Below the pieces are notes generated by a model. That model had not been told where the DNA came from. It was given only the letters and a program-made list of their open reading frames with translations, and did no database searches. Source: an uncultured Alphaproteobacteria bacterium (GTDB lineage: Bacteria; Pseudomonadota; Alphaproteobacteria; Micropepsales; Micropepsaceae). From it: a DNA stretch of 15,950 bases. Both the position numbers and the translations under genes were made by a program. This document shows, one piece after another, positions 5,451-11,567 of this stretch (position 1 is the first letter of the stretch; every line of letters begins with the position of its first letter). Location: contig CAIXUE010000241.1 in the NCBI GenBank assembly GCA_903922545.1, positions 1-15,950 on the forward strand. Reading direction: 5' to 3'.

Positions 5451-5526
5451 GGGGCTGTAGCTCAGTTGGGAGAGCGCCTCGTTCGCAATGAGGAGGCCAG
5501 CGGTTCGATTCCGCTCAGCTCCACCA
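5451..5526 (+). tRNA. tRNA-Ala (anticodon CGC), CCA encoded
   Basis: The 76-nt cloverleaf is complete. The acceptor strands GGGGCTG and CAGCTCC pair with a G3-U70 wobble, the identity mark of alanine tRNA. The D-arm is GCTC...GAGC. The anticodon stem CCTCG/TGAGG encloses the loop TTCGCAA, with anticodon CGC at 5484-5486 (reads GCG). The T-arm is GCGG-TTCGATT-CCGC, and discriminator A73 plus CCA are encoded. This is an intact, functional-looking tRNA; the copy downstream is not. Confidence 0.96.
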
Positions 5527-5553
5527 TCCTCTCAGGATGGTTGCCCGAACCGA
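5511..5553 (+). repeat. Direct repeat copy 1: tRNA-Ala 3' end plus trailing hairpin
   Basis: These 43 bases, from the T-stem of tRNA-Ala through a downstream hairpin (CCATCCT-CTC-AGGATGG, 5524-5540, which includes the CCA end), recur at 5671-5713 with 37 of 43 positions identical. The second copy keeps a hairpin (CCATCC-TTTTC-GGATGG). No T-run follows either hairpin, so they do not look like ordinary terminators. Confidence 0.85.
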
Positions 5554-5577: not shown

Positions 5578-5713
5578 GCCAGCGGTTCTGCCCGGCCTCG
5601 CGGGCCTTTGGCCCGCTGTGGCGTTCGCCGGGCAAAAGGTCCCCCGGACCTTTTGCTTATTCCGGCTCACCCGCTCAGTTCCACCATCCTTTTCGGATGG
5701 GCGCCCGAACCGA
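5578..5713 (+). repeat. Broken second copy of the tRNA-Ala 3' end, T-loop replaced by an 82-bp palindromic insert
   Basis: GCCAGCGGTTC of the tRNA variable loop and T-arm (5496-5506) is repeated exactly at 5578-5588. The next tRNA bases, GATT (positions 57-60), are replaced by 82 bp (5589-5670). The tRNA sequence then resumes at position 61 with CCGCTCAGTTCCACCA and the trailing hairpin (5671-5713). The insert contains two nested palindromes: GCCCGGC...GCGGGCC-TTT-GGCCCGC...GCCGGGC (about 5590-5634) and CAAAAGGTCC-CCC-GGACCTTTTG (5633-5655). The copy lacks the 5' half of a tRNA and cannot make a cloverleaf. The same design follows tRNA-Arg at 9786-9864. Confidence 0.85.
5624..5672 (+). repeat. 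Shared palindromic core, tRNA-Ala copy
   Basis: This core starts TTCGCCGGGCAAAAGG, has the hairpin GGTCC-CCC-GGACC flanked by CAAAA and TTTTG, and ends CTTATTCCGGCTCACCC. It aligns with 9801-9851 with 46 of 51 columns identical (three substitutions, two single-base gaps). The hairpin followed by TTTTGCTTATT could also work as an intrinsic terminator. Confidence 0.85.
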
Positions 5714-9698: not shown

Positions 9699-9775
9699 GC
9701 GCCCGTAGCTCAGCTGGATAGAGTGCTGCCCTCCGAAGGCAGAGGTCATAGGTTCGAATCCTATCGGGCGCGCCA
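9699..9775 (+). tRNA. tRNA-Arg (anticodon CCG), CCA encoded
   Basis: The 77-nt cloverleaf is complete. The acceptor GCGCCCG pairs with CGGGCGC, and the anticodon stem CTGCC/GGCAG encloses CTCCGAA, with anticodon CCG at 9733-9735 (reads CGG, Arg). The T-arm is ATAGG-TTCGAAT-CCTAT, with discriminator G73 and encoded CCA at 9773-9775. It starts 28 bp after the end of the DUF2817-like gene on the same strand. A TATAGG at 9681-9686 could be a -10 box, but no matching -35 box is clear. Confidence 0.96.
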
Positions 9776-9785
9776 CTCATTTTCC

Positions 9786-9864
9786 GAGGTCATAGGTTCT
9801 TTCGCCGGGGCAAAAGGTCCACCGGACCATTTGCTTATCCCGGCTCAACCCATCGGGCGCGCCA
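9786..9864 (+). repeat. Broken second copy of the tRNA-Arg 3' end, T-loop replaced by a 49-bp palindromic insert
   Basis: GAGGTCATAGGTTC of the tRNA (9742-9755) is repeated exactly at 9786-9799. The bases GAAT (positions 57-60) are then replaced by 49 bp (9800-9848), and the tRNA sequence resumes at position 61 as CCCATCGGGCGCGCCA (9849-9864), with one mismatch to the intact gene. The insert contains CAAAAGGTCC-ACC-GGACCATTTG and ends CCCGGCTCAA. The breakpoints match those of the unrelated tRNA-Ala copy exactly. No 5' tRNA half is present, so this is not a functional tRNA. Confidence 0.85.
9801..9851 (+). repeat. Shared palindromic core, tRNA-Arg copy
   Basis: This is the second copy of the core at 5624-5672; three substitutions and two one-base gaps separate them. 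The inner hairpin has one mismatch (ATTTG instead of TTTTG), while the outer arms are slightly better paired (GCCGGGG / CCCGGC). Confidence 0.85.
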
Positions 9865-9869
9865 CGCCT

Positions 9870-9960
9870 AGCTTTTGTTAGCGAGCCGTCCATCGCGGCA
9901 GCGTATGGATGCGAGCTTACAAAAGCTGGTGCCCTGCGAGCGAAGCGAGCGGGCCGGTCT
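9870..9960. repeat. Imperfect long inverted repeat and GCGAGCGAAGCGAGC motif downstream of tRNA-Arg
   Basis: The arms AGCTTTTGT (9870-9878) and ACAAAAGCT (9919-9927) are exact reverse complements. Inside them lie TCCAT (9889-9893) and ATGGA (9905-9909), giving an imperfect stem of about 23 bp with an 11-nt loop. It is followed at 9936-9950 by the internally repetitive GCGAGCGAAGCGAGC. No gene covers 9776-9977; besides this and the broken tRNA copy I see nothing else there. Confidence 0.65.
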
Positions 9961-11183: not shown

Positions 11184-11567
11184 ATGGCCAAAGCCAAAAA
11201 ATCCAAAGCAAAAAAACCCGCCAAGAAGAAAACCAAAGCCGCAAAGGCCAAGCCCGCCAAAGCGCGCCGCGCACCGGTGAAGGCTAAAAAGGCCAAAAGC
11301 AAAAAAACCGCTGCCCGCAAGCCGGTTGCCCGCAAACCGGTGAAGACGGCGAAAAAGCCTGTCGCCAAAAAGAAGAAGCAAATTGTGGGCGAAGGCGACT
11401 ACGCCGCCACCCGCGCCTTCGACAAGGATCAAACCACTTTTGTGAAGCGCAACAAGGCCAAGATCCCGGAACTGGCCCGCGAAGCCGAAAAGGCGCTGGA
11501 CGGACCGGAGGGCGATTCGCTGCGCGCCGCCGAACAGGAAGCGATGAACCGCTCCACCATCGACTGA
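11184..11567 (+). CDS. Lysine-rich histone-H1-like protein with conserved C-terminal domain
   Basis: The 127-residue protein begins with about 66 residues of almost pure Lys, Ala, Pro and Arg in AKKP/RKPV repeats, like bacterial histone-H1 mimics, suggesting binding to DNA or RNA (inference). The second half (from IVGEGDYAATRAFDKDQTTF through ELAREAEKALDGPEGDSLR) is acidic and helical, of a kind I have seen in hypothetical alphaproteobacterial proteins, with a GEGxY start and a DGPEGD segment. Length and charge separation suggest a nucleoid-associated accessory protein. A GGAGA ribosome-binding site precedes the ATG at 11184; a longer upstream frame is not protein-like. A terminator follows the stop. 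Confidence 0.85.
   Translation: MAKAKKSKAKKPAKKKTKAAKAKPAKARRAPVKAKKAKSKKTAARKPVARKPVKTAKKPVAKKKKQIVGEGDYAATRAFDKDQTTFVKRNKAKIPELAREAEKALDGPEGDSLRAAEQEAMNRSTID

Follow-up and report, generated by a model that had tools for sequence, protein, structure and literature searches.

A dispersed REP-like palindromic family with a preference for tRNA genes and, at some loci, duplicated tRNA ends at its borders

A palindromic core that occurs twice in the window, by which is meant the whole 15,950-nucleotide stretch of DNA analysed, belongs to a family of non-coding palindromes that are dispersed in genomes and have GTTC(R) and CTCAC as their ends. Comparison of its copies tips the balance modestly towards the core being a non-autonomous, non-coding, REP-like palindromic mobile element with a preference for tRNA genes, which would be inserted by hairpin joining with duplication of the target. 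The lodging of such a hairpin in a tRNA, together with a duplicated piece of that tRNA, suggests a mobile element able to enter tRNA genes without killing the cell. If this is true, tRNA genes would be a repeated landing site not just for islands and phages but also for gene-free hairpins of less than 0.2 kb, whose insertion would itself ensure that the tRNA remains functional. The loci described here also offer defined places at which to study the spread of palindromic repeats that lack a transposase, CGTC REPs among them, and they warn annotators of a class of broken tRNA copies.

Palindromic cores beside two tRNA genes of the window

The sequence-only reading had pointed to two nearly identical palindromic cores in broken tRNA copies, and both parts of this were borne out. 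Global alignment of positions 5624-5672 with 9801-9851 gave 46 identical columns out of 51, and both cores fold as claimed, with predicted energies of -25.9 kcal/mol (z -6.0) for core A and -25.4 kcal/mol (z -4.7) for core B. The hairpin pattern CAAAAGGTCCNNNGGACCWTTTGCTTAT has exactly two occurrences in the window and none in 200 shuffles with three mismatches permitted. The broken second tRNA copies are likewise real, being delimited by direct repeats of 43 nt at locus A (5511-5553 / 5671-5713, 86% identity) and of 14 nt (9742-9755 / 9786-9799, 100%) and 17 nt (9760-9776 / 9849-9865, 94%) at locus B. Since the T-stem 5′ half is, as read from the sequence, also duplicated at locus A, each element lies in the T-loop of a second tRNA copy (Table 1).

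Table 1. Features of loci A and B in the window; the R1 scores are those of cores that were among the 17 sequences used to build R1.
Feature	Position	Strand	Basis
Intact tRNA-Ala(CGC)	5451..5526	+	ARAGORN; Rfam RF00005, 67.1 bits
X1 of locus A: T-stem 3′ half, acceptor 3′ strand, CCA and trailer hairpin of intact tRNA-Ala	5511..5553	+	43-nt direct repeat, first copy
T-stem 5′ half, second copy GCCAGCGGTTC, left of element A	5578..5588	+	Sequence; same layout in G010, L216/L255
Element A, left hairpin, variable part	5589..5622	+	Sequence; predicted fold
Element A, core: GTTCG-stem-GCAAAAGGTCC-CCC-GGACCTTTTGC-TTATT-stem′-CTCAC	5623..5670	+	R1, 71.8 bits; predicted fold
X2 of locus A: relic tRNA-Ala 3′ end and trailer hairpin, immediately 3′ of CTCAC	5671..5713	+	Direct repeat
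Intact tRNA-Arg(CCG)	9699..9775	+	ARAGORN; Rfam, 69.5 bits
X1 of locus B: T-stem 3′ half and acceptor of intact tRNA-Arg, one extra base	9760..9776	+	Direct repeat
Locus B, second copy of GAGGTCATAGGTTC = T-stem 5′ half	9786..9799	+	Direct repeat
Element B, core, without left hairpin, start about 9800; begins TTTCG, ends CTCAA	9800..9848	+	R1, 59.3 bits; predicted fold
X2 of locus B: relic tRNA-Arg 3′ end, immediately 3′ of element B	9849..9865	+	Direct repeat

A search of the whole window with Rfam 15 placed the two tRNAs alone above the gathering score, and locus A gave sub-threshold matches only, the tRNA apart. The two elements of the window may be remnants of old insertions. A second palindromic repeat, AGCTTTTGTTAGC...GCTTACAAAAGCT, lies 3′ of the tRNA-Arg relic (9870-9927), and a Lys/Ala-rich frame (AKKSKAKKPAKKKTK..) at 11184-11567 is histone H1-like in appearance by eye.

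Architecture of the family

A pattern scan of genome contigs with AAAAGGTCCNNNGGACCNTTTGC returned 117 stretches, mostly from Alphaproteobacteria and many from the same genomes, of which 17 had a tRNA within 300 bp and 100 had none. The core is accordingly not confined to the end of a single tRNA precursor, an arrangement that the sequence-only reading had held against mobility. A strict GTTC..core..CTCA match was present in 48 of 118 sources. The plan of the family runs from GTTC(R) through a variable stem of 4-6 bp, GC-AAAAGGTCC and a 3-nt loop to GGACCTTTT-GC, 4-6 unpaired bases, the second stem arm and CTCAC, giving an inner stem of 11 bp, an outer stem of 4-6 bp and a loop of 3 nt (alignments A1 and A2); the inner stem varies to AAAAAGATCC/GGATCTTTTT in L026.

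Pairing is retained in 95.1% of cells across 17 sequences, with five outer-helix pairs changed on both sides, a test biased in the structure's favour because the structure was derived from the same 17 sequences. Cells changed on both sides numbered 25 against a shuffled mean of 12.2, and the covariation score was 0.191 against 0.055, neither value being reached in any of 500 shuffles; the number of pair types, at 6 against 5.2, was no higher than in shuffles (183/500 as high). Among 154 copies the right end reads CTCAC in 118 and the left end GTTCG in 120. The distance from the left repeat, X1, to the core ranges from 30 nt (L145) to 148 nt (L373), leaving aside L288 and L279, whose repeats extend into the left hairpin, and this variation implies that the left end is not fixed.

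Some copies have unusual surroundings. In a clostridial tRNA cluster (L057, about 2520-2640), the core lies by eye in the anticodon loop region of a tRNA-Gln-like sequence, as an insertion, a pseudogene or an intron. Composite repeats of the form TCTTCCCC..[element]..GGGGAAGA occur in L124, L131, L132, L134 and L152 (G001, G008, G018), as though the element lay inside a larger palindrome.

Distribution among bacterial groups

The model R1, built from 17 copies, found matches in all 19 carrier genomes, which had been chosen through their pattern loci and were taken as Alphaproteobacteria, one as Proteobacteria only; each carried 2-51 matches, counts for which 150 candidates were scored per genome and one place may match on both strands. 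With stricter filters than in this carrier scan, R1 was found in 14 of 385 genomes of the Alphaproteobacteria (the class of G018), 24 of 369 of the Gammaproteobacteria (the class of G403) and 26 of 250 of the Lachnospiraceae (the family of G407), the group names being those taken for these three genomes and the samples including the pattern-chosen carriers G018 and G010, G403 and G404, and G407 and G413, respectively. Full-length matches of at least 45 bits in the Lachnospiraceae numbered 21 in 15 genomes, and some of the others were short and weak. The Bacteroidota genome G410 has weak matches (at most 38.3 bits) of a different layout beside tRNA-Asn, tRNA-Pro and tRNA-Leu. The exact core pattern was absent from the viral contigs searched.

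Preference for tRNA genes and sites of insertion

The preference of the element for tRNA genes is real. The profile search and count of flanks that the sequence-only reading had proposed revealed copies that are dispersed, yet with tRNA genes strongly preferred in several groups. Among alphaproteobacterial copies, here the loci other than those assigned to other phyla or to Gammaproteobacteria, 11 of 148 lie within 250 bp of a tRNA, compared with 8 of 1361 control points; 9 of these 11 are at one tRNA-Ala(CGC) locus, so that independent alphaproteobacterial events are few (about four). In the Lachnospiraceae, 15 of 18 loci read, out of the 21 full-length ones, are within 300 bp of a tRNA (13 tRNA-Leu and 2 tRNA-Arg by ARAGORN). 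The three loci with no tRNA call are L310, L317 and L334, of which the latter two are cut near a contig start but still show either a repeat of the T-loop or part of a tRNA end.

For the Gammaproteobacteria, a tRNA lies no more than 300 bp from a copy in 13 of 24 carriers, or in 11 of 22 when G403 and G404 are excluded. The gammaproteobacterial loci inspected numbered 46, of which 26 were selected automatically and 20 by hand; 13 were near a tRNA and 13 had a repeat score of at least 14. Five multi-copy genomes of this class had no tRNA-linked copy among the matches read (7/7 in G746, 6/6 in G999, 4/5 in G973, 5/14 in G1004 and 3/16 in G731).

Insertion positions recur, in the T-loop in sense and in the D-loop in antisense orientation. 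Most tRNA-Leu copies occupy the site GGTTCAAGT|CCC, and the antisense D-loop site GCTCTA(T)|CC is used in tRNAs for Lys, His, Thr, Arg, Phe and Met, and less exactly Gly. T-loop sites in Pro and Arg tRNAs and an anticodon-arm site in Trp were seen in Gammaproteobacteria. In 12 of 19 D-loop copies, 92-108 nt separate X1 from the core. The earlier proposal of a mobile element entering the T-loop of tRNA 3′ copies therefore stands in part: mobility is supported by the dispersed family, as far as comparison of genomes can indicate it, but the T-loop alone is too narrow a target, given D-loops in antisense, anticodon arms and one protein gene end.

Direct repeats at the right end of the element

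For 154 distinct full-length copies of at least 45 bits, the right flank was sought within 400 bp to the left. A repeat score of at least 14 was reached by 21 of 154 copies, compared with 2 of 668 random control points in the same loci, and for 19 of these 21 the repeat begins immediately 3′ of the element, in a test that was applied to full-length model matches alone and so favours intact right ends. These 21 copies represent 13 different loci, with 8 of the 21 at one orthologous tRNA-Ala locus, and 133 of 154 copies have no detectable flanking repeat. An earlier, hand-picked set, which omitted L007, L016, L027 at 5290, L028, L034 and L043 (46-50 bits) and kept L111 (39 bits), gave 21/149 versus 2/625 in the same test. 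The best repeat of the Lachnospiraceae loci is at offset 0 in 15 of 18, with scores of at least 12 in 14 and at least 14 in 5.

Repeats of 100% identity stop abruptly after 28 (L341), 32 (L348), 42 (L373), 51 (L340 and L001) or 72 bp (L117), and because of this variation a fixed 70-bp duplication was dropped as an explanation. X1 and X2 stand 77-196 bp apart in 12 of 14 cases measured, the exceptions being L288 and L279. At a protein gene end (L145 in G008), 69 bp, of which 64 are identical, are repeated around the element; this gene is present in seven relatives, and the four that were read (G018, G006, G010, G004) have a single gene end with no element after it. One copy of the repeat abuts the right end of the element, and the other, at the tRNA loci as at L145, forms part of the intact neighbouring gene. 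In the copies with a repeat, the element lies against a duplicate of its target, which leaves the tRNA whole and the broken end outside. Tandem arrays of the element occur in L096, L108 and L021.

Inverted-repeat flanks, as in hairpin-loop targeting, were considered and set aside, with scores of at least 9 in 9 of 147 copies versus 6 of 579 shuffled pairings, and of at least 8 in 14 versus 18 shuffled; this is an excess, but it is not claimed as a finding, since three of the nine (L005, L107 and L232) share one flank and five copies at exactly 8 are one composite repeat.

The window loci in related genomes

At the tRNA-Ala(CGC) gene, the element and a relic are present in 9 of 12 relatives searched, in the T-loop in G001, G008, G010, G011 and G018 and at the anticodon arm in G004, G006, G015 and G016. 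Neither was found at this gene in G013 and G017, and no orthologous locus was seen in G007. The relic T-loop of G006 carries a second, divergent GTTC..CTCAC element, and the relic tRNA-Ala in L264 shows extra hairpins in the T-loop and in the loop of the trailer hairpin, like stacked insertions. In L015 and L074 the trailer of X2 has diverged but its tRNA piece remains conserved, a hint of constraint or of repeated conversion.

Downstream of tRNA-Arg(CCG), the stretch read in each of 11 relatives (the 12 minus G013) contained neither element nor relic, the G004 stretch being cut short by the end of its contig. In G001, G008 and G018 a palindrome lies directly 3′ of this tRNA, and by eye a similar one lies 3′ of X2 in the window; from its position, the relic X2 seems to be the end that the gene first had, and the intact end an added copy. 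A piece of about 50 nt from the 3′ end of tRNA-Arg(CCG) lies some 7 kb from the intact gene in G006 (L268, C3:88840-88889), with no element seen alongside, and it follows that partial tRNA copies can arise without the element.

Comparison with known repeats and islands

Tyrosine-integrase islands that integrate at tRNA genes leave an intact tRNA and a partial 3′ copy, with the original end distal. The present loci share the intact tRNA plus partial 3′ copy but differ in having about 0.1-0.2 kb between the repeats, with no room for an integrase, in a flank that is in some cases duplicated past the tRNA, and in the antisense use of D-loops. The RtT repeats of the E. coli tyrT locus are tandem 178-bp units within one operon, each with a piece of a tRNA 3′ end; they resemble the present arrangement in these tandem units but have no dispersed palindrome. 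The fixed short target duplication of a MITE of a DDE transposon was not found, the repeats at 100% identity being 28-72 bp long.

With GTAG REPs and REPINs and their RAYTs, the element shares a short, imperfect, multi-copy hairpin that is bulged and has an unpaired motif at its foot, but it lacks the GTAG tag, has a longer hairpin and a strong tRNA preference, and comes with Y1 in 3 of 19 carriers. Cutting by REP transposases is described as GTAG-dependent in the available part of the source (PMC8266576). REPIN clusters, reported as tandem repeats that include flanking sequence (PMC3116915), are the nearest precedent for the layout of the repeats. GTAG and CGTC super-families of REPs have been defined, the latter without a reported transposase and with the tags CGTC, TGTC and CCTC named for it, according to the accessible sections (PMC3733652). 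Like the present family, CGTC REPs are dispersed in Alphaproteobacteria and other phyla with no dedicated transposase, and their tags are similar, not identical, to ours, where the left foot is often GCGTTC and the right CCTCAC. They differ in a stem of 8-9 bp, a loop of 4-5 nt and a CCA tail, as opposed to our stem of 4-6 + 11 bp and 3-nt loop, and in the portion available tRNA is mentioned solely via tRNA-synthetase and pseudouridine-synthase genes (PMC3733652). Br-REP1 and Br-REP2 of Bradyrhizobium are also alphaproteobacterial palindromes in 3′ regions, but their consensus is by eye unlike ours and the word 'tRNA' is absent from the text as available (PMC5082802). Further sources on known kinds, likewise available in part, are PMC3119063 and PMC12306157. 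On the features tested, the element is REP-like in build and a member of neither the GTAG nor the CGTC super-family. Among the literature matches listed, no title concerned a tRNA-lodged palindromic repeat, in a coverage outside which most subscription journals lie, so that absence is unproven; for the core string, the matches listed held no title on bacterial interspersed repeats.

Alternative explanations

A serious rival, though one that we consider rather unlikely, is slippage or template switching during host replication, in which the hairpin would stall the fork and the nascent strand would jump to another copy of the element and back, yielding a tandem copy of the flank with no dedicated enzyme needed. 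Neither a Y1 transposase nor a reverse transcriptase being general among the 19 carriers agrees with this, as do the tandem arrays in L096, L108 and L021, the element-free relic L268, the variable left end and the copied sequence on both sides of the element at A and B; the copying of the T-stem 5′ half at these two loci is also a point that plain target duplication does not predict. A random jump, however, should not end at the right end of the element in 19 of 21 copies, nor should it recur at the same T-loop and D-loop positions across tRNAs and phyla. A conserved tRNA-linked terminator or processing hairpin, the other function proposed from the sequence, is very unlikely indeed. It would account for an A-stem-T hairpin on both strands, for the retention of element and relic at tRNA-Ala(CGC) in 9 of 12 relatives with an outer arm changed on both sides relative to the window, and for a conserved X2 tRNA piece beside a diverging trailer (L015, L074). 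Against it stand the 100 of 117 first-scan loci without a nearby tRNA, the lack of the element in G013 and G017, and a T-run tail that is short and interrupted by GC; no terminator-like site was called at A and only one weak match, at 9816-9828 and covering the core, at B, and where read (L274, L275, L278, L281, by eye) a T-run hairpin already lies between the intact tRNA and the element.

Relics of integrase islands, in which X1 and X2 would be attL and attR, the interior would be lost and the hairpin would be a leftover or a folded attachment site, are an improbable source of these loci. The polarity is like that of islands that integrate at tRNA genes, with X2 as the apparent original end at B, and the T-loop crossover and the short repeats of the Lachnospiraceae are in keeping with such an origin; yet some repeats extend far into the leader or trailer (72/72 in L117; L288), the same arrangement is found at a protein gene end (L145), and interiors of 77-196 bp in 12 of 14 cases are too short for an integrase gene. 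It is also quite doubtful that the element is a GTAG-type REP moved by a RAYT or IS200-like Y1 transposase. Its reverse strand, GTGAG-GCCGG-ATCA-GC.., resembles an E. coli REP, and in one carrier, G007, a sister element lies about 1.1 kb from a Y1 frame (L118). By eye, however, the repeats beside that Y1 gene are other repeats, Y1 is found in 3 of 19 carriers and not in the complete genome G017, none of 154 copies begins with GTAG or ends with CTAC, and Y1 insertion is not known to leave a target duplication.

Possible route of insertion and candidate enzymes

For the favoured reading of a mobile element with a preference for tRNA genes, we infer that a single-stranded hairpin copy (DNA or RNA) would be joined via its CTCAC end to tRNA loops at YTCNN|CC-like sites. 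The adjacent few tens of bp would then be duplicated as the gap is filled or the strand is re-synthesised, with one copy rebuilding the tRNA gene and the other staying outside the element as a broken end. Rebuilding of the tRNA by duplication would explain how insertion into an essential gene is tolerated.

A Y1 transposase (PF01797) was found in only 3 of 19 carriers, some of them drafts, with none in the complete genome G017, and a reverse transcriptase in 7 of 19, of which 6 were above the cut-off; hence neither is a general partner, in a set where drafts can miss genes, and the 7/19 speaks against a reverse transcriptase as the common enzyme. A decidedly unlikely variant is a SINE-like bacterial retroposon, a structured hairpin RNA, constant at its 3′ end (..CUCAC) but variable at its 5′ end, that would enter tRNA loops by target-primed reverse transcription in Proteobacteria and Firmicutes at least, its variable target duplications (28-72 bp at perfect identity) rebuilding the tRNA.

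The Y1 frame in L118 (1460-2140) is RAYT-like and is accompanied by GGGGACACTATAC-like repeats, and the sister element in this locus, at about 296-370, has an AAACGG inner stem.
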